64,000 nt of DNA, taken from Acidimicrobiales bacterium (GTDB lineage Bacteria > Actinomycetota > Acidimicrobiia > Acidimicrobiales > Aldehydirespiratoraceae). How positions within the stretch are numbered: position 1 is the stretch's first letter; every line of letters starts with the position of its first letter. Shown here piece by piece: positions 27,697 to 36,146 of this stretch. Position numbers and translations under genes: made by a program. Where the stretch lies: NCBI GenBank assembly GCA_029263175.1, contig JAJCXZ010000049.1:124001-188000 (forward strand), read 5' to 3'. Under the pieces are notes generated by a model that did no database searches, had not been told where the DNA came from, and was given only the letters and a program-made list of their open reading frames with translations.

Positions 27697-28449
27697 ATGA
27701 CCCGGGTATTCGTTCACGGCAATCCGGAGACCGCCGCCATTTGGGGCCCTCTCCTCGACGCGCTTCGGCATCGAGGTGAGTCCGATGTGGTGTGCCTTTC
27801 GGCTCCCGGCTTCGGCGCGCCGAGACCCGATGGCTTCGCTGCAAGCCCGGCGTCCTACGTCGGTTGGTTGACCGGTGAGCTGGAACAGGTCGATGGCCCG
27901 ATTGATCTGGTCGGCCACGACTGGGGCGCCGGGCATGTCTTCGGGCTGCTTGGCGTTCGCCCCGATCTCATCCGCTCCTGGGCGGCGGACTGCGCCGGCC
28001 TGGTCCACCGTGACTATGTCTGGCACGACATGGCGCAGGCCTGGCAGACCCCTGAGGTGGGCGAGCAGGTCGTGGCCGCGATGGTGGAGACGCCGGCAGA
28101 GGAGCGGGTCGCCATGTATGTCGGGCTGGGAATCTCTGACCCCATCGCGCGCGCTCTCGTGAGCGAAATGGATCCTTCACTCGGTGCGTGCATCCTCGCT
28201 CTCTACCGCGGCGCTGCTCAGCCGATGATGGCGGACCTTGGCCGAAGCCTTCTGGCCGCTGATCTTCCTCCCGGTCTTGTGCTCGACGCCACCAACGATG
28301 CATATTCCCAGCCTGCGCTGGGCCGCGAGATGGCCGGACAGCTCGGCGCAGACGTCTTCACGATGGAGGGCGAGGGACATTGGTGGATGTGCTCGGTTGC
28401 GGATGCTGCAGCCGACGGTCTCATTGAATTCTGGTCGACTCTCACGTGA
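27697..28449 (+). CDS. Alpha/beta hydrolase, epoxide hydrolase/haloalkane dehalogenase-like
   Basis: A 250-residue alpha/beta hydrolase. ATG 27697 begins the fold directly (TRVFVHGNPETAAIW, with the HGNP oxyanion motif). The nucleophile elbow is VGHDWGAGH with Asp75, an aspartate as in epoxide hydrolases and dehalogenases rather than a serine esterase. The C-terminal EGEGHWW supplies the catalytic histidine. The oxidoreductase gene follows 16 bases downstream. The substrate is unknown. Confidence 0.82.
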   Translation: MTRVFVHGNPETAAIWGPLLDALRHRGESDVVCLSAPGFGAPRPDGFAASPASYVGWLTGELEQVDGPIDLVGHDWGAGHVFGLLGVRPDLIRSWAADCAGLVHRDYVWHDMAQAWQTPEVGEQVVAAMVETPAEERVAMYVGLGISDPIARALVSEMDPSLGACILALYRGAAQPMMADLGRSLLAADLPPGLVLDATNDAYSQPALGREMAGQLGADVFTMEGEGHWWMCSVADAAADGLIEFWSTLT

Positions 28450-28465
28450 TCCATCGGGACTCGCG

Positions 28466-29431
28466 GTGAAAGGTTGGCTGGTCCGGCAAAAGGGCATCGC
28501 CGAGTTCGTTGCCGACCTGCCCGAGCCCGAACTCGTTGGCGAGTCGATGATCGTTCGCGTTGATGCCGCGACGGCGAACTTCGCTGATCGACTGCTCATC
28601 GACGGCAAGCATCAGATCCGCCCCAAGCGTCCGTTCACCGCTGGTTTGGAAGCCGCGGGCACCGTGGTCGAATCATCGAGCGATCGGCATCCGGTGGGCG
28701 CGCGGGTGATGGGACTCGTCGAGCCCGGCGTCGGCTCATGGGCCGAGCTCTGTCGCTGCCTGCCGCACAACGTGATCAGCATCCCCGATGGTGTCGACTC
28801 CGTCGCCGGGGTGGCGATCCATCTCAATGCGGAAACGGTGTGGCTCGCTCTGCACCACCGGGCTCGGATCACGGCTGGAGAGGTGGTCCTGGTCCACGCC
28901 GCGGCGGGTGGCCTCGGCACCATGGCGATCCAACTGGCCGTGGCCGCCGGGGCCACCGTGCTGGCCACGTGCTCAGCGGGCAAGGCGGCCGTGCCTCTGC
29001 GGCTCGGCGCGACGGCTGTCGTCGACAACCGGGCCGACGATTGGCACGATCAGGTCGCCGAGCACGCTCCTGATGGCGTGGACATCGTTGTCGATCCGGT
29101 CGGCGGCGACCTCTTCGAACGGTCGTTGAAGCTGCTTCGGTTCGAGGGTCGTCTGATCACGTTGGGATTCGCGTCCGGCGAGATCCCGTCGCTGCCGGCC
29201 AATTACGCCTTGGTGAAGAATCTTTCCCTGATCGGTGTGTTCTGGGAGCCGTACGCGGCGCGGCGTCCGTCGCTGGTCGATCAGGCGGCGCAGGAGATCT
29301 TCGCCCTCCACGCCGCGGGTAGAATTGATCCGTGCATCACCGTGGTCGACGACATCTCGAACGCTGTCGACCGCGTCAACGATGTCGCTGCCGGCGTCAC
29401 GGTGGGCAAGACCGTGCTCGTCTGGCAGTAG
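28466..29431 (+). CDS. Zinc-independent NADPH:quinone oxidoreductase (MDR family)
   Basis: A 321-residue medium-chain reductase. GTG 28466 begins the family N-terminus (KGWLVRQKGIAEFV). The catalytic domain contains NFADRLLIDGKHQ and GLEAAGTV; the cofactor fold has HAAAGGLGTMAIQLAVAAGA. No structural zinc cysteine cluster is seen, so it is quinone-oxidoreductase-like rather than a zinc alcohol dehydrogenase. It probably reduces an enone or quinone with NADPH. It ends at the edge of the rhodanese remnant encoded on the other strand. Confidence 0.85.
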   Translation: MKGWLVRQKGIAEFVADLPEPELVGESMIVRVDAATANFADRLLIDGKHQIRPKRPFTAGLEAAGTVVESSSDRHPVGARVMGLVEPGVGSWAELCRCLPHNVISIPDGVDSVAGVAIHLNAETVWLALHHRARITAGEVVLVHAAAGGLGTMAIQLAVAAGATVLATCSAGKAAVPLRLGATAVVDNRADDWHDQVAEHAPDGVDIVVDPVGGDLFERSLKLLRFEGRLITLGFASGEIPSLPANYALVKNLSLIGVFWEPYAARRPSLVDQAAQEIFALHAAGRIDPCITVVDDISNAVDRVNDVAAGVTVGKTVLVWQ

Positions 29432-29635
29432 CCGACTAGCTCCGGAGCGGGTGGCCGTCTGTCCGCTTCGGTTCCCGGAGCGGCAATAGATTACGTAGGG
29501 AACGGTCGGGTCGAGATCGGCGAGCCGGTCGGAAAAGTCGGCCGCGTAGAAGTCGATCAGTTGTGAGTCGGCGATGTGCCCCTCGGCAAATTCCTCCGGC
29601 GTACGAACGTCGAGGATGACCAGATCGTCGGCGGA
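29432..29635 (-). pseudogene. Rhodanese domain remnant, in frame after the TlpA-like stop
   Basis: Minus-strand translation directly after the TlpA-like TGA (29636-29638) gives SADDLVILDVRTPEEFAEGH, then a loop, then VIYCRSGNRSGQT. This is a recognisable rhodanese domain with the active-site CRSGNR loop. It has no start codon or ribosome site of its own, shares the reading frame of the TlpA-like gene across the stop, and loses similarity after GQT. There it runs into the end of the oxidoreductase gene on the other strand. It is most simply a decayed, 3'-truncated rhodanese gene; a once-fused domain or stop readthrough is a less likely alternative. Confidence 0.7.
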
Positions 29636-30340
29636 TCAGCGAGAAGCGGTGCCGACGGATGCTGCCGCCTGGTCGAGGAGGTCGCGGAACATGGCCTCAG
29701 AGAGTTCGCCGGTGGCGCGGAACAGCACGGCGTCGTCGGCGTCGACGGCGACCCAGAACGGGAATGCAGTGAGCCCGTAGCCGAGGGCGAGGTCTCCGGC
29801 TTCGCTGTCGACCACGGTGGTGCCGGTCCAGCCTTCCCGTTCGAGCCATGCCGACGGGGGATAGTTGTCCGCGGTGGCGCTCACCGATGTCGAAATCACG
29901 ACGATGTCCACGCCGTCGGGGACCTCGGTGCCGTCCATCCATGAGACGAGGTTTGGTACCTCACGTTGGCAGTGCGGGCACCAGTGTGCGACGAACGCAT
30001 AGATGCGTGCGACTCCGTCGTTTCCGAACTGGACCCGGTCGCCGTCGAAGGTGCTGGCCACAATGGAGGGTGCTGTGGCCCCGATGGCCGTATCCGGATC
30101 GGTGAAGCGGGCAAGAGGGGTGCCGATGACCTCCGCGAATCCCGTCTCTTGTCCGGTGGCGGGCGCGTCGCTGTTGTTGACGGCGAGGAGCCCGGTCACC
30201 ACGGCGACGATGAGTACGAAGGCGATGACCCAGAGAAGCGGTGATTGCCAGAATGGCTTCGGCCCCGGAGTCGCCGGCTGAGGACCCTGCGCGGTCCTGG
30301 TCGAGGCCTTGTTCCGGTTTGGATTCGGACGGTTGCTCAT
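29636..30340 (-). CDS. Membrane-anchored thioredoxin-like protein (TlpA/DsbE type)
   Basis: A 234-residue protein. A basic, proline-rich N-terminus and one transmembrane helix (about residues 32-53) precede an extracytoplasmic thioredoxin fold. The active site is CPHC (121-124, AHWCPHCQREVP) and the cis-proline region is LTAFPFWVAVD. ATG 30340 overlaps the DsbB-like stop (ATGA), so the pair forms an operon for disulfide or thiol chemistry outside the membrane. Further upstream codons in this frame are not protein-like. A rhodanese remnant follows its stop in frame. Confidence 0.88.
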   Translation of the reverse strand: MSNRPNPNRNKASTRTAQGPQPATPGPKPFWQSPLLWVIAFVLIVAVVTGLLAVNNSDAPATGQETGFAEVIGTPLARFTDPDTAIGATAPSIVASTFDGDRVQFGNDGVARIYAFVAHWCPHCQREVPNLVSWMDGTEVPDGVDIVVISTSVSATADNYPPSAWLEREGWTGTTVVDSEAGDLALGYGLTAFPFWVAVDADDAVLFRATGELSEAMFRDLLDQAAASVGTASR

Positions 30341-30864
30341 TGCTGCTCCTGGGGGTGGGGCGTGGTGGGCACGGCGGGCGACGCAAGGGTCAACAAGCCG
30401 ATGATGAGAATGAACGCGACGGCCGACATCTGAGGGATGGTCATCCAACCAAAGGCCTCGACCCAGCGTCCGCTGCAGGGATTGGTGATGTCGCAGCTCG
30501 AACTCTGCTCGGGAAACCACTGCAGTTGCACGTGGTACACCGCCAACGCCAGGCCGGTACCCGCGAGTGCGAGCGCATACGGACGAATCCACCAATCGCC
30601 GCGCCCGGCGGCGATGGGCAGTATGACGGCGAGCGGATACATGGCGATCCGTTGGTACCAGCAGAAATCGCACGGCACGAAGTCGGCGATCTCGGAGAAG
30701 GCAAGGCTGCCGAGCATCGCGGCCATGGCGACGAGGGCGGCGAGGGGGAGTGCACTCTCTGCAACGCGCTGTCGAAGTGACCGGTTGGCGAACGTGGCGA
30801 TCAACCCGACAATCCCTCCCAGTTCGAGCAGGGCGAAGAAGCGCGCCATTGTCTCCGGTTCCAT
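30337..30864 (-). CDS. DsbB-family disulfide bond formation protein
   Basis: A 175-residue four-helix membrane protein. The quinone-proximal redox pair is C65-x-x-C68 (VPCDFCWYQR) and the second pair is C124/C130 in SSSCDITNPC, the pattern of DsbB/BdbC. It reoxidises a thiol-disulfide partner and passes electrons to quinone. The partner is probably the overlapping TlpA-like protein. Its ATG lies 6 bases behind a TAGACT -10 box and faces the GntR gene. Confidence 0.9.
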   Translation of the reverse strand: MEPETMARFFALLELGGIVGLIATFANRSLRQRVAESALPLAALVAMAAMLGSLAFSEIADFVPCDFCWYQRIAMYPLAVILPIAAGRGDWWIRPYALALAGTGLALAVYHVQLQWFPEQSSSCDITNPCSGRWVEAFGWMTIPQMSAVAFILIIGLLTLASPAVPTTPHPQEQQ

Positions 30865-30944: not shown

Positions 30945-31715
30945 ATGGCGCTGACACCACTCGATCGACACAGCCCGATGCCGCTTTGGGCGCAGCTCGA
31001 GGAGAATCTTCGATCGAGGCTCGATGCCGGAGAGTTCGATGAGGGCTTCCCGACCGATCTCCAACTCACCGCTGAATACGAGGTCAGTCGCCACACCGTC
31101 CGTGAGGCGGTTCGGCACCTCAACAAGACAGGGCTGCTCAAGCGCGAACGTGGGCGGGGCACGGTCATCAATCGTGCGGAGTTCGAACAGTCGCTCGGCA
31201 CGCTCTACTCGCTGTTTCAGTCCGTCGAGTCCGCCGGGGTGGAACAAACCAGCCAGGTTCTTCGTCTCGAGATCGTCACCGACTCAGTCGCTGCATCTCA
31301 CCTCGAAGTTCCCGAAGACACCGAGTTTCTCCTGCTCGAGCGGCTTCGTCTCGCGGGGGGTGTGCCCCTTGCGGTTGATCGTGCGTGGATCCCCGGCGAG
31401 AAGGCTCGGACGTTGCTCGATGTCGATTGGTCACATACCGCGCTCTATGCCGAGCTGGCACAGGCAGGGGCGCCTGTCCCGAACCAGGGATGGGAACGAC
31501 TCACCCCGATGACGCCTTCGGCCGCTGATCGCAAGCTGCTCGAACTCCGAAAGACCGACGCCGTCTTCTTCCTCGAGCGCCTCGGTTCTCGTGATGGCGC
31601 ACCGATCGAATGGCGGACCACGATCATTCGTGGTGATCGCTACCGCTTTGTCTCGGACTGGACCACGGGCGAGCGCAGCGAACTCCGACCCACCGCCGCG
31701 CCTGGCATCAACTGA
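30945..31715 (+). CDS. GntR-family regulator, HutC/UTRA subfamily
   Basis: A 256-residue transcription factor. The N-terminal winged helix (about residues 10-75) shows FPTDLQLTAEYEVSRHTVREAVRHL followed by the wing RGRGTVI. The C-terminal UTRA ligand domain (about 100-245) contains FLLLERLRLAGGVPLAVDRAWI. It probably responds to a small metabolite. It is divergent from the dsbB-like operon and convergent with the CsoR-family gene (8-base overlap). Its own targets are not obvious. Confidence 0.88.
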   Translation: MALTPLDRHSPMPLWAQLEENLRSRLDAGEFDEGFPTDLQLTAEYEVSRHTVREAVRHLNKTGLLKRERGRGTVINRAEFEQSLGTLYSLFQSVESAGVEQTSQVLRLEIVTDSVAASHLEVPEDTEFLLLERLRLAGGVPLAVDRAWIPGEKARTLLDVDWSHTALYAELAQAGAPVPNQGWERLTPMTPSAADRKLLELRKTDAVFFLERLGSRDGAPIEWRTTIIRGDRYRFVSDWTTGERSELRPTAAPGIN

Positions 31716-31953
31716 GTTTCAAGAACAGCTTTTCCAGCTCGGCCGGGTCACTGTCGGGGTCTTGGTTCGCCATTGCGGCTGCCATCAACCGGAATCCGAC
31801 GCGGTCGAGTGCGCCCTTTGCGGCCGAGAGTTGGGTGACGATCTCGCGGCACTGGTCGCGTTCCTCGATCATGCGCTGAAGCCCTCGAATCTGACCTTCG
31901 AGCCTTCGGAGGCGCTTGATGACGTCTTCGCTGGTGTCCTCGGGGAACTGCAT
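31708..31953 (-). CDS. CsoR/CstR-family (DUF156) repressor with a single cysteine
   Basis: An 81-residue all-helical repressor. The family core RLRRLEGQIRGLQRMIEE is followed by Cys35 (DQCREIVTQLSA). The usual second ligand positions (His and Cys of the CsoR H-x3-C) read AAAMANQ here, so neither copper ligation nor a standard two-cysteine persulfide switch is possible within one chain. ATG 31953 lies 7 bases behind a TAAAGT -10 box. The dyad ATACCCC-TA-GGGGTAT overlaps its promoter. Its neighbours (SulP, rhodanese, MBL-rhodanese) argue for reactive-sulfur sensing. Confidence 0.85.
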   Translation of the reverse strand: MQFPEDTSEDVIKRLRRLEGQIRGLQRMIEERDQCREIVTQLSAAKGALDRVGFRLMAAAMANQDPDSDPAELEKLFLKLS

Positions 31954-31970
31954 GTCGATCACTTTATCAA

Positions 31971-31986
31971 ATACCCCTAGGGGTAT
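31971..31986. promoter_or_regulatory. CsoR/CstR-type operator 1
   Basis: A perfect 16-bp palindrome, ATACCCCTAGGGGTAT, in the divergent gap between the CsoR-family gene and the SulP transporter. It covers the spacer and -35 zone of the repressor's own promoter and abuts the -35 (31988) of the SulP promoter. The ATACCC/GGGTAT halves match the operators known for CstR-type repressors. The same half-sites recur at 34721-34736. Confidence 0.75.
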
Positions 31987-31987
31987 G

Positions 31988-32016
31988 TTGACGATCCGTC
32001 TATATGTCCGTATATT
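31988..32016 (+). promoter_or_regulatory. Promoter of the SulP-carbonic anhydrase-rhodanese operon
   Basis: TTGACG (31988-31993), a 17-base spacer and TATATT (32011-32016) form a good sigma-70 promoter. The -10 box ends 7 bases before ATG 32024, so the operon mRNA is predicted to be leaderless. Operator 1 lies immediately upstream. Confidence 0.6.
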
Positions 32017-32023
32017 CGTACAT

Positions 32024-32035
32024 ATGTCCGGACAT
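32024..32035. promoter_or_regulatory. 12-bp palindrome over the SulP start codon
   Basis: ATGTCCGGACAT is a perfect dyad starting on the initiation codon. The related half ATATGTCCG also occurs 20 bp upstream at 32002-32010, and TACGGACA occurs before the gntR gene (30889-30896). It could be an operator for a second regulator, possibly the GntR protein. It may also be coincidence of coding sequence. Confidence 0.3.
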
Positions 32036-33742
32036 TTTCGACTCCTCCCGATCATGGGCTGGTTGCCTCGCTACCAGCGCATCGATCTGCGCAGCGACCT
32101 CGCGGCCGGTATGACCGTCGGTGCCATGCTTGTTCCCCAGGCGATGGCCTATGCCCTGCTGGCCGGTCTCCCGCCCGAGGTCGGGCTCTACGCCGCAACG
32201 ATCCCGGTGATCATCTACGCATTGTTCGGTACGTCTCGCCAGCTCGCGGTCGGTCCTGTCGCCATCGTGTCGCTCATGACGGCGTCGGCTCTGGCATCGG
32301 TCGTCGAGGAGGGCTCGGCGGAATACCTCGAAGCCGCAGCACTGCTGGCCCTCATGGTCGGCGTTGTGCACTTGATCCTCGGTGGCGGTCGCCTCGGCTT
32401 CCTGGTCGACTTTCTCTCTCATTCGGTTCTTGTCGGGTTCACGGCGGCTGCGGCGCTGATCATCGGCTTCTCGCAGGTCAAACACGTGCTCGGAATCTCG
32501 GTGCCTCGACAGGAGCATTTCATCGACACGGTTCGAGAGGTCGTCTCCGCCGCCAGTGAAACCCACGGTGCCACTGCTGTCCTCGGCACCGCCGCTCTCA
32601 TCGTTCTCTTGGTGCTCAAGAGGGCGGCACCTCGATTTCCCGCGGCCCTGCTTGTGGTGGCCGGCTCGGTCGTCGCCGTGCGGCTCTTCGACCTCGAAGA
32701 CAATGGTGTGAGCGTCGTCGGCGACATCCCGGACTCGTTGCCCGCCTTCGGCCTGCCTGAGCTCAGCGGCTCGTTGATCAGTGATCTCGCCGTTACTGCG
32801 GTCGTGATCACGATCGTCGGCTTCATGGAGTCGATCGCGGTCGCCAAGGTCTATGCCCGGCGTCATCGCTACGACGTGGAGCCCAACAGTGAGCTCATCG
32901 GTCTCGGTGCTGCCAACGTCGCCGCCGGCCTCTTCGGTGGCTATCCGATCACCGGCGGCTTCTCCCGTACCGCCGTGAATGACAGCGCGGGTGCGCGCAC
33001 GCCACTGGCCTCGCTGGTCACCGCCGCCATCGTGTTGGCCACCATCGCCTTCTTGACGCCGTTGCTGACCTCGCTCCCAAATGCCGCGCTCGGCGCGATT
33101 ATCATCGTGGCGGTCGTCGGTCTGATCGATATCGCCGAGATGCGTCACATCGTGGCCGTGAAGCGGTCGGATCTCATTGGTCTGTCGGTCGCCTTCATCG
33201 CGACCCTGGTGTTGGGTATCGAGATCGGCATCGGGGTGGCTGTGGTTGCCTCGATGCTCGTCGTGTTCGCCCGGATGTCGACTCCGCACACCGCTGTACT
33301 CGGCCACGTCGACGGCACGACGACCTACCGCAACGTCGCCCGTTTCCCCGAGGTCGACACCGATGACGGCATTCGCATCGTCCGCATCGATGCCGCAGTC
33401 TCGTTCGTCAACGCTTCCAAGATGAAGCGCCTTGTCACCGAACACGCCCAATCGCTGACTCGAGAACCCCGTGCCCTCATTCTCGATGCCGGGGGTATCA
33501 ACGACCTCGACGCGACCGGTGCGGAGATGCTCGCCGAGCTCATCCCCGAAATCGAGGCGCTCGACGTTGCGTTTCACCTTGCCGAGGTGAAGGGCCCGGT
33601 CCGCGATGTCATGCATCGTGCTGGTCTCTGGGGCCAGTTCGGCGACCGCATCCATGCATCGACCCACGATGCGGTGCTGTCAGTGTCCGGCGAGACGCCG
33701 CCCGCTCCGCATCGTCGCCTTCTGGGGGTCGACGAGCGATGA
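32024..33742 (+). CDS. SulP-family anion transporter with STAS domain
   Basis: A 572-residue SLC26/SulP transporter. The membrane core begins DLAAGMTVGAMLVPQAMAYALLAG, contains the GLFGGYPITGGFSRTAVN consensus, and ends with a cytoplasmic STAS domain (about residues 440-550). Substrate may be sulfate, sulfite or bicarbonate. The next gene is a beta-carbonic anhydrase, a pairing usually read as bicarbonate uptake, but the operator and flanking rhodaneses point to sulfur. ATG 32024 is the predicted leaderless start; its stop overlaps the next ATG (ATGA). Confidence 0.88.
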   Translation: MSGHFRLLPIMGWLPRYQRIDLRSDLAAGMTVGAMLVPQAMAYALLAGLPPEVGLYAATIPVIIYALFGTSRQLAVGPVAIVSLMTASALASVVEEGSAEYLEAAALLALMVGVVHLILGGGRLGFLVDFLSHSVLVGFTAAAALIIGFSQVKHVLGISVPRQEHFIDTVREVVSAASETHGATAVLGTAALIVLLVLKRAAPRFPAALLVVAGSVVAVRLFDLEDNGVSVVGDIPDSLPAFGLPELSGSLISDLAVTAVVITIVGFMESIAVAKVYARRHRYDVEPNSELIGLGAANVAAGLFGGYPITGGFSRTAVNDSAGARTPLASLVTAAIVLATIAFLTPLLTSLPNAALGAIIIVAVVGLIDIAEMRHIVAVKRSDLIGLSVAFIATLVLGIEIGIGVAVVASMLVVFARMSTPHTAVLGHVDGTTTYRNVARFPEVDTDDGIRIVRIDAAVSFVNASKMKRLVTEHAQSLTREPRALILDAGGINDLDATGAEMLAELIPEIEALDVAFHLAEVKGPVRDVMHRAGLWGQFGDRIHASTHDAVLSVSGETPPAPHRRLLGVDER

Positions 33743-34110
33743 GCGATGTCTGGACAGAACTCCTCGGGGCCCATGAAACGGCCCGTCGCGCCGATCGGGG
33801 ACTCGTCCCCCAACACAAGCCGAATGCTGCGGTGCTCTCTTGCTCGGACGCTCGAGTCCCGCCCTCGGTCGTCTTCGGACAGGTCCATGGCGATCTTTTC
33901 GTCGTCCGCAATGCGGGCAACAACGCCACGCCGGCCGCCGTCGCCAGCCTTGACTTCGCCGTCGGCGAACTCGACGTCGACCTCATCATCGTGATGGGCC
34001 ACACCGAGTGTGGGGCCGTCGCCGCGCTCTACGACCTTGCCACCGATTCCCTCAGCGAACTCCATGATCCCAACGTCCCCCAAACAGAAATTGCCCAGGA
34101 GGCACCATGA
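33739..34110 (+). CDS. Short beta-carbonic anhydrase-like protein
   Basis: A 123-residue protein carrying the full beta-carbonic anhydrase zinc site: C35-x-D37-x-R39 (SCSDARV) and H88-x-x-C91 (GHTECGAV). At 123 residues it is much shorter than the usual 165-220, lacking the C-terminal helices. The end is not an obvious frameshift because the stop overlaps the next start (ATGA) neatly. It is coupled to SulP upstream. It may be a minimal active enzyme or an accessory domain; activity is not certain. Confidence 0.8.
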   Translation: MSDVWTELLGAHETARRADRGLVPQHKPNAAVLSCSDARVPPSVVFGQVHGDLFVVRNAGNNATPAAVASLDFAVGELDVDLIIVMGHTECGAVAALYDLATDSLSELHDPNVPQTEIAQEAP

Positions 34111-34700
34111 CCCCCTCAGCGGTCCCGGCGGCAAACGCCGTCTCCCCATCCGAACTGCAGCACCTCCTGGCGCTGCATCCCCAATTACGGATTCTCGATG
34201 TCCGCACCTCGGGCGAGTTCCAGGGCAATCACATCCCGGGCTCGTTCAATGTGCCCCTCGATACGCTCGGCGAGCACGTGAAAGACCTCGCCGATGTGGA
34301 CCATCCAGTGGCGCTGATCTGCCAGTCCGGTGGGAGGGCGACCAGGGCCCATGAGCAACTCGGCGCTGCAGGCAAACACTCGCTCCACGTTCTCACCGGC
34401 GGTATGGCCGCATGGACCGCGGCCGGTGGCGAAACCACCAGCACCGCTCCTGACCGGTGGGCCCTCGATCGCCAGGTCCGGTTTGTCGCCGGTCTGCTCG
34501 TGTTGATCGGCATTGTGGTCGGCCAACTCGTGGCGCCAATGATCTGGTTGGCGGGGGCCGTCGGCTTCGGCCTCGCATTCTCGGCCATCACCAACACCTG
34601 CGCTATGGGCATGATGCTCGCCAAGCTGCCGTACAACAGGGGCCCGCGATGCAACATCGACCAGGTTCTCACCGACTTGCGTAAAGAGGTGAGCCGATGA
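34107..34700 (+). CDS. Rhodanese-membrane protein (YgaP-like, DUF2892)
   Basis: A 197-residue protein. A rhodanese domain (about residues 13-110) with active-site Cys72 (ALICQSGGRATR) is followed by two transmembrane helices (about 124-165) and a short cytoplasmic tail, as in YgaP. It would carry sulfane sulfur as a cysteine persulfide at the membrane. An AGGAGG ribosome site inside the carbonic anhydrase gene serves ATG 34107. It is the third gene of the SulP operon. Confidence 0.87.
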   Translation: MTPSAVPAANAVSPSELQHLLALHPQLRILDVRTSGEFQGNHIPGSFNVPLDTLGEHVKDLADVDHPVALICQSGGRATRAHEQLGAAGKHSLHVLTGGMAAWTAAGGETTSTAPDRWALDRQVRFVAGLLVLIGIVVGQLVAPMIWLAGAVGFGLAFSAITNTCAMGMMLAKLPYNRGPRCNIDQVLTDLRKEVSR

Positions 34701-34711
34701 CTCTTCGCCGG

Positions 34712-34739
34712 TTGACAGAGATACCCCAGGGGGTATAAT
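34712..34739 (+). promoter_or_regulatory. Consensus promoter with CsoR/CstR operator 2 in its spacer
   Basis: TTGACA (34712-34717), a 16-base spacer and TATAAT (34734-34739) are both perfect consensus. The dyad ATACCCC-AG-GGGGTAT (34721-34736) fills the spacer and overlaps the -10 box. A repressor bound there would block RNA polymerase directly. It drives the MBL-rhodanese gene and shares its half-sites with operator 1 at 31971-31986. Confidence 0.85.
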
Positions 34740-34775
34740 GTACGTACAAAGTGTCCCACGAACGGGAGTTTCGAA

Positions 34776-36146
34776 ATGATCTTCACCCAGTACTACCTCG
34801 ACTGCCTTTCCCAGGCCTCGTATCTGATCGGGGACGAGTCCACCGGCCGTGCCGTTGTGGTTGATCCTCGTCGTGACATCAACGAATACGTGCGGGATGC
34901 TGAGGCCGCCGACCTGAGCATCGAGCTGATTCTCGAGACCCACTTTCACGCCGACTTCCTCTCGGGTCACCTCGAGCTGGCCAAGGCCACGGGCGCTGCC
35001 ATCGGATTGTCCGATGTCGCGGCGCCGGAGTTCGACGTCCGCTCGTTCGCAGACGGCGAGAAGTACTCCCTCGGCGAGGTTGAGTTGGAGATCCTCCAGA
35101 CCCCGGGCCACACGCCCGAGTCGATCAGCATCGTCGTGCGGGAGCAGGCTGATGCCGAGCCGTGGGGTGTCCTCACCGGCGACACGTTGTTCATCGGCGA
35201 TGTCGGACGCCCCGACCTCCTGGCGTCCATCGGCTTTGAGCGCGACGATCTCGCCGAGATGCTCTACGACAGCCTCCACAACAAGCTGATGCCGCTGCCC
35301 GACGCCACCCGTGTCTACCCGGCCCACGGCGCCGGTTCGGCGTGTGGCAAGAACTTGTCGAGTGAAACCTCGTCCACCATGGGTGAGCAGAAGGCAGGCA
35401 ACTACGCGCTGCTCGCTCCGGACAAGCAGACGTTCATCGACCTGGTCACCGAGGGTCAGGCCCCGGCTCCCGGCTACTTCGTCTACGACGCCATCCTCAA
35501 CCGCAAGGACCGCGAGCTTCTCGACGAGGACGCGCCGATCGATGCGCTCGACCTCCCCCAGGTCGAGGCGTTGGTCTCAGGCGGAGCGATGCTCATCGAC
35601 GGTCGTGACCCCGACGAGTTCGGCAACGGTCACCTCATCGGCTCGGTCAACGTGGGTCTCGATGGCCGCTATGCCGAGTTCGCGGGGTCGGTGGTGCCGA
35701 GCGATCAGGACATCGTCCTGGTGGTCGAGCCGGGTCGCGAGCTCGAAGCTCGCAACCGTCTTGCCCGCATCGGCTTCGACCGGGTGGTCGGCCATCTCAA
35801 CGCCCCCTTCAAGGTCATGGTCGAACAGCCGGAGAAGGTGCAGCGGGCATCGCGCCTCACGGCGCGAGAACTCGCCGAACGACTCCAGTCGGTCGAGGGT
35901 CTGCAGTTGGTCGACATTCGCAACCCCGGCGAGTTTGCGCTCGGTGCCATTGACGGCGCCGCGGCCATGCCGGTCGGCCAGATGCCCGACCGCATCAGCG
36001 AGCTCGACCCGGCCAAACCGACGGTCGTCTATTGCGCCGGCGGCTACCGCTCGTCGGTCGCAGCCAGCTATCTGCGCAACCACGGCTTCGGGGATGTCTC
36101 TGACCTCCTCGGTGGCTACGGAGCCTGGGTTCCCGTCCCCGCCTAG
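34776..36146 (+). CDS. MBL-fold/rhodanese fusion (persulfide dioxygenase type)
   Basis: A 456-residue protein. The N-terminal metallo-beta-lactamase domain (1-~240) has the ETHE1-like metal motif THFHADFLSGH (H56, H58, D60) and a GDTLFIGDVGRPDL segment. Two rhodanese domains follow: the first (about 255-350) has lost its cysteine, the second carries Cys420 (VVYCAGGYRSS). This layout matches CstB-like enzymes that oxidise persulfide sulfur to sulfite/thiosulfate. A GGGAG ribosome site precedes ATG 34776. It has its own repressible promoter (34712-34739). Confidence 0.9.
   Translation: MIFTQYYLDCLSQASYLIGDESTGRAVVVDPRRDINEYVRDAEAADLSIELILETHFHADFLSGHLELAKATGAAIGLSDVAAPEFDVRSFADGEKYSLGEVELEILQTPGHTPESISIVVREQADAEPWGVLTGDTLFIGDVGRPDLLASIGFERDDLAEMLYDSLHNKLMPLPDATRVYPAHGAGSACGKNLSSETSSTMGEQKAGNYALLAPDKQTFIDLVTEGQAPAPGYFVYDAILNRKDRELLDEDAPIDALDLPQVEALVSGGAMLIDGRDPDEFGNGHLIGSVNVGLDGRYAEFAGSVVPSDQDIVLVVEPGRELEARNRLARIGFDRVVGHLNAPFKVMVEQPEKVQRASRLTARELAERLQSVEGLQLVDIRNPGEFALGAIDGAAAMPVGQMPDRISELDPAKPTVVYCAGGYRSSVAASYLRNHGFGDVSDLLGGYGAWVPVPA

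Follow-up and report, generated by a model that had tools for sequence, protein, structure and literature searches.

A probable remnant of a C-terminal rhodanese domain behind the stop codon of a TlpA-like gene in an Acidimicrobiales bacterium

In the 64,000-nucleotide stretch of DNA analyzed here (the window), a rhodanese core (SADDLVILDVRTPEEFAEGHIADSQLIDFYAADFSDRLADLDPTVPYVIYCRSGNRSGQ, minus strand) lies just past the TGA of a TlpA-like gene and in the same frame as that gene (Table 1). With a probability of about 0.86, we interpret this segment as the remains of a rhodanese domain that once formed the C-terminal part of a TlpA-rhodanese fusion and has recently been lost to ordinary gene decay.

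Table 1. Features at and around the rhodanese segment (window coordinates).
Feature	Position	Strand	Details
PIG3-like NAD(P)H quinone oxidoreductase ORF, convergent	28238..29431	plus	Pfam ADH_zinc_N; TIGR02824 is the best match yet below cut-off
Surviving old C-terminus, GHPLRS-stop	29436..29456	minus	TAG at 29438-29436, now in another frame; GHPLTS-stop in G001
Site of the 76-nt frameshifting deletion	29456..29457	minus	Just past the active-site loop
Retained rhodanese core	29459..29629	minus	57 codons, DDLVILDV...CRSGNRSGQ; PF00581 match
1-nt loss	29631..29632	minus	GATCCGCCCGA in G001, GATCCG-CCGA here; brings the core back into the TlpA frame
TGA stop	29636..29638	minus	Best read as out-of-frame L-A-D codons CTC GCT GAT after the upstream deletion; DNA alignment with G001
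TlpA/ResA-like thioredoxin-fold gene	29636..30340	minus	234 aa, N-terminal membrane anchor, CPHC motif; intact, ends at the TGA
Possible breakpoints of the ~80-nt deletion	29642..29655	minus	Removes the linker end and the first rhodanese strand and helix; split-alignment scan against G001
DsbB gene	30337..30864	minus	PF02600, 61.6 bits; its TGA overlaps the TlpA start (ATGA)
GntR/UTRA regulator, divergent	30945..31715	plus	Conserved in relatives beside dsbB-tlpA or a stand-alone rhodanese gene

Against the Pfam Rhodanese profile (PF00581), the core scored 44.9 bits (gathering cut-off 22.2, E-value 1.7e-11), which excludes a chance match. An earlier note, made from the letters of this DNA, had described a rhodanese core whose CRSGNR loop is intact, read in the TlpA frame beyond a single TGA and without a start codon, and this description was confirmed: the catalytic cysteine and its six-residue loop are intact at the end of the core, and start-type codons occur in the strand only as 2 TTGs inside the core. 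The segment shares the fold core and the cysteine active-site loop with the single-domain rhodaneses GlpE and PspE (PF00581), but in comparison with these the window copy lacks both domain ends. Only positions 12-78 of the 102-position profile are covered, and the complete alpha/beta domain is no longer there: as judged from the Pfam span and a structural model of the intact protein of a relative, the first strand and helix, along with part of the linker, and the last strand and helices are gone. On this model, the remaining segment could not form a complete rhodanese.

The intact form of the gene was found in 2 relatives. In the MAG Acidimicrobiaceae bacterium BH8, a sister species from the same genus (G001), the TlpA reading frame at the same locus continues into a complete rhodanese, giving a fusion protein of 354 aa (L002/L070, JAERSO010000025.1), and the MAG OFTM10, from another genus of the family (G012), carries a complete fusion of 350 aa at the same site (L003/L071). 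Both fusions directly follow DsbB and are flanked by a divergent GntR regulator, and they end in GHPLTS-stop (G001) and LPTTS-stop (G012). A third fusion, in L073, is cut by the contig end. The window resembles G001 in locus, in flanking genes, in its TlpA (75% identity with the TlpA portion of the fusion), in the core (49 of 57 residues identical) and in the C-terminal GHPL-S-stop; it differs in that the G001 frame is complete and that approximately 2 kb of other genes precede the quinone oxidoreductase gene there (L150 12217-14256, C25), including a subtilisin-like protease ORF, a stretch that the window does not have. The TlpA tree places the window protein as sister to its G001 counterpart (SH-aLRT 99), with the window branch the shorter one; the forks that bear on whether the fusion originated once are weakly supported. 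The earlier note had named a full rhodanese gene at this locus in relatives as support for a remnant, and a complete rhodanese does stand at the exact site in both G001 and G012. What it missed is that in these nearest relatives the rhodanese is the C-terminal domain of the TlpA protein and not a separate gene, which explains why the frame is shared and why a start codon is missing.

DNA alignment of the window with G001 showed that a net 81 nt are missing between the end of TlpA and the core, and that 76 nt are missing after CRSGNRSGQ, a loss that shifts the frame; together with the TGA, these are the disabling changes of a pseudogene whose intact homologues occupy the same locus in relatives. 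For the upstream loss, a model of 80 plus 1 nt scored highest under all 5 gap settings. An in-frame loss of 33 nt between CCGACGAT repeats, in which case the TGA would have arisen independently, scored below it in every setting, not absurdly so, and is kept as a possible detail; the division of the upstream 81 nt into events is uncertain. Mapping of the lost stretches onto the structure that AlphaFold predicts for the G001 fusion (mean pLDDT 84.9) showed them to contain strand 250-252, helix 254-262, most of the end of helix 317-329, strand 335-338, and helix 341-347. The match thus does end after the active-site loop, as had been noted, but the neighboring gene is not met there: beyond the 76-nt deletion at 29457/29456, the old C-terminus continues as GHPLRS-TAG in another frame. 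The rhodanese has an internal hole rather than running into the neighbor, and 4 nt separate the stop of the quinone oxidoreductase ORF from that of the old rhodanese.

These observations suggest the following course. The ancestral locus would have encoded a single TlpA-rhodanese fusion protein. Losses of 80 nt and 1 nt upstream of the core would then have removed the start of the domain, the first creating the TGA and the second restoring the TlpA frame; the shared frame would be inherited from the fusion, preserved because the 2 losses sum to a multiple of three. The 76-nt loss past CRSGNRSGQ would have put the old C-terminus out of frame. All these losses appear to be recent and to have occurred on the lineage of this genome. 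Translation would now stop at the TGA, leaving the remainder as an untranslated residue, and the product would be a TlpA protein of normal stand-alone length, encoded beside DsbB; stand-alone TlpA homologues terminate near the same point as the window TlpA. This protein matches the Pfam Redoxin family (PF08534, 29.1 bits, cut-off 26.6) and has a CxxC motif (CPHC), the 2 sequence features by which we predict it to be a TlpA/ResA-like thiol oxidoreductase. Decay of one fused gene would therefore account for the shared frame, the missing start codon, and the abrupt end of the core.

The time of the break was estimated from substitutions. Over the 57 ungapped codons of the core, comparison with G001 gave a dN of 0.074 and a dS of 0.787 (dN/dS of approximately 0.09), resembling the intact neighbors (dN 0.104 and dS 1.16 for the TlpA thioredoxin domain; dN 0.127 and dS 0.97 for DsbB). 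The relaxed selection on the remaining core that is expected of old decay only was not found; purifying selection of the ordinary kind acted on the core through almost the whole period since the divergence from G001, and its low dN/dS indicates that the break is recent. By eye, against G012, L073, L072, L074, and L093, most core differences between the window and G001 fall on the G001 side, and the E to D change in LADLD clearly arose on the window side. By a rough Poisson estimate, selection would have been lifted from the domain over no more than about a quarter of the window branch.

The little-worn core also counts against decay, because an assembly error would look alike. The main rival, which we consider unlikely, is accordingly that the deletions are local artifacts of assembly or consensus and that the living organism has an intact fusion. 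Besides the unworn core, the concentration of 3 indels within approximately 200 bases, one of them a single base in a CCC run, and the draft state of the genome (111 contigs, 4.4 Mb) fit such an error. Against it, losses of 80 and 76 nt are untypical of base-call errors, and the genome contains no second or intact copy. Approximately 19 other genes shared with G001 over about 25 kb align over their full or nearly full length in one frame, which makes general sequence error unlikely; generally poor sequence quality was rejected on this ground.

Much less probable still is that the TGA is read through, or decoded as selenocysteine, to yield an extended TlpA-rhodanese protein. The frame does stay open for 220 codons past the TGA, and the genome encodes UGA-decoding machinery with scores above the cut-offs (tRNA-Sec, 64 bits, with a tca anticodon in ARAGORN; SelB, 278 bits). 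However, with both ends of the rhodanese missing, the product would be a half-domain followed by approximately 160 codons antisense to the quinone oxidoreductase ORF, and TGA functions as a stop here, since DsbB, TlpA, GntR, and other window genes, several of them intact, end in it. After the TGA, neither a SECIS-like hairpin (fold z 0.10, no better than shuffles) nor a match to an Rfam family was found, and neither a Cys nor a redox motif occupies the TGA position in homologues, those in G001 and G012 included. The incomplete domain, the antisense extension, the absent hairpin, and the lack of a Cys in homologues together led us to reject this reading as unlikely. Of the 3 origins that the earlier note had considered, a deletion scar and a decayed gene both apply, together, whereas readthrough is not supported, given the deleted domain ends and the antisense frame. 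As a separate observation, the tRNA-Sec gene lies at C30:11354-11445 (L181) and selB at C75:17477-18538 (L188) of this genome (G000), with a SelA-like stretch, recognized by eye, just upstream of selB; a genome with tRNA-Sec and SelB probably makes selenoproteins.

That a stand-alone rhodanese gene decayed beside TlpA is also very improbable: a separate lipoprotein rhodanese gene does adjoin dsbB-tlpA in the more distant L072, L074, and L093, but G001 and G012, the closest relatives, carry the fused form, and between TlpA and the core there is no trace of a start or a signal peptide.

Decay of a fused domain is set against a varied distribution of this rhodanese. Among 80 loci fetched by TlpA similarity, 3 carry the fusion (L070, L071, and L073) and 3 have a separate rhodanese beside dsbB-tlpA (downstream in L072 and L074, upstream in L093); in more distant relatives, the rhodanese is either such a separate lipoprotein gene or absent from that place. 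A strong match to the subfamily was found in 28 of 397 genomes of the order, and most of the matches read out have a lipoprotein-type signal, several of them adjoining the same GntR regulator. The genome of the window has no other close copy, its remaining rhodanese hits being at most 39% identical. The rhodanese lipoproteins secreted by other Acidimicrobiia (L072, L074, L093, and L153-L180) belong to the same subfamily (approximately 50% to 62% identical to the G001 rhodanese); unlike the window segment, each is encoded by a gene of its own and has a signal peptide and a lipobox, and they often adjoin the same GntR regulator, few of them adjoining DsbB-TlpA. A GntR/UTRA regulator like that of the window adjoins a stand-alone rhodanese lipoprotein gene in L153, L159, L161-L163, L166, and L178, suggesting that the 2 form a conserved regulatory pairing in the order.

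The surroundings had been called a locus full of sulfur-transfer genes, a fair description: a YgaP-like rhodanese, a metallo-beta-lactamase-rhodanese, 2 SulP permeases, and a CsoR-type repressor are encoded a few kb away. The CsoR-type repressor, a SulP permease, and both rhodanese-containing proteins are clustered (window 31708-33742 and 34107-36146) in a way that resembles sulfide/persulfide-handling clusters. Between the SulP permease and YgaP-like rhodanese genes lies a short beta-carbonic anhydrase ORF (123 aa, window 33739-34110, plus strand) that matches just positions 2-75 of the 156-position Pfam profile; DNA comparison showed that G001 lacks most of this stretch.

Our literature searches returned only general papers on terminal domain loss, and nothing useful on a DsbB/TlpA/rhodanese system. 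The locus offers a view of a multidomain protein losing a terminal domain, with related genomes displaying the intact fusion, the separate-gene forms, and the broken form side by side. It also carries a caution: a frame that continues cleanly past a stop codon is not by itself a sign of readthrough, and here 2 losses happen to sum to a multiple of three. We tentatively raise a broader idea, itself rather doubtful, that in Acidimicrobiia DsbB, TlpA, and the rhodanese might act together as an extracytoplasmic relay: the rhodanese would carry sulfane sulfur, and the DsbB-driven TlpA would oxidize or release it. On this idea, the rhodanese would have started as a separate lipoprotein, become a C-terminal fusion, and then been lost in this lineage. 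The loosely conserved DsbB-TlpA-rhodanese neighborhood is a modest lead on extracytoplasmic sulfur chemistry.
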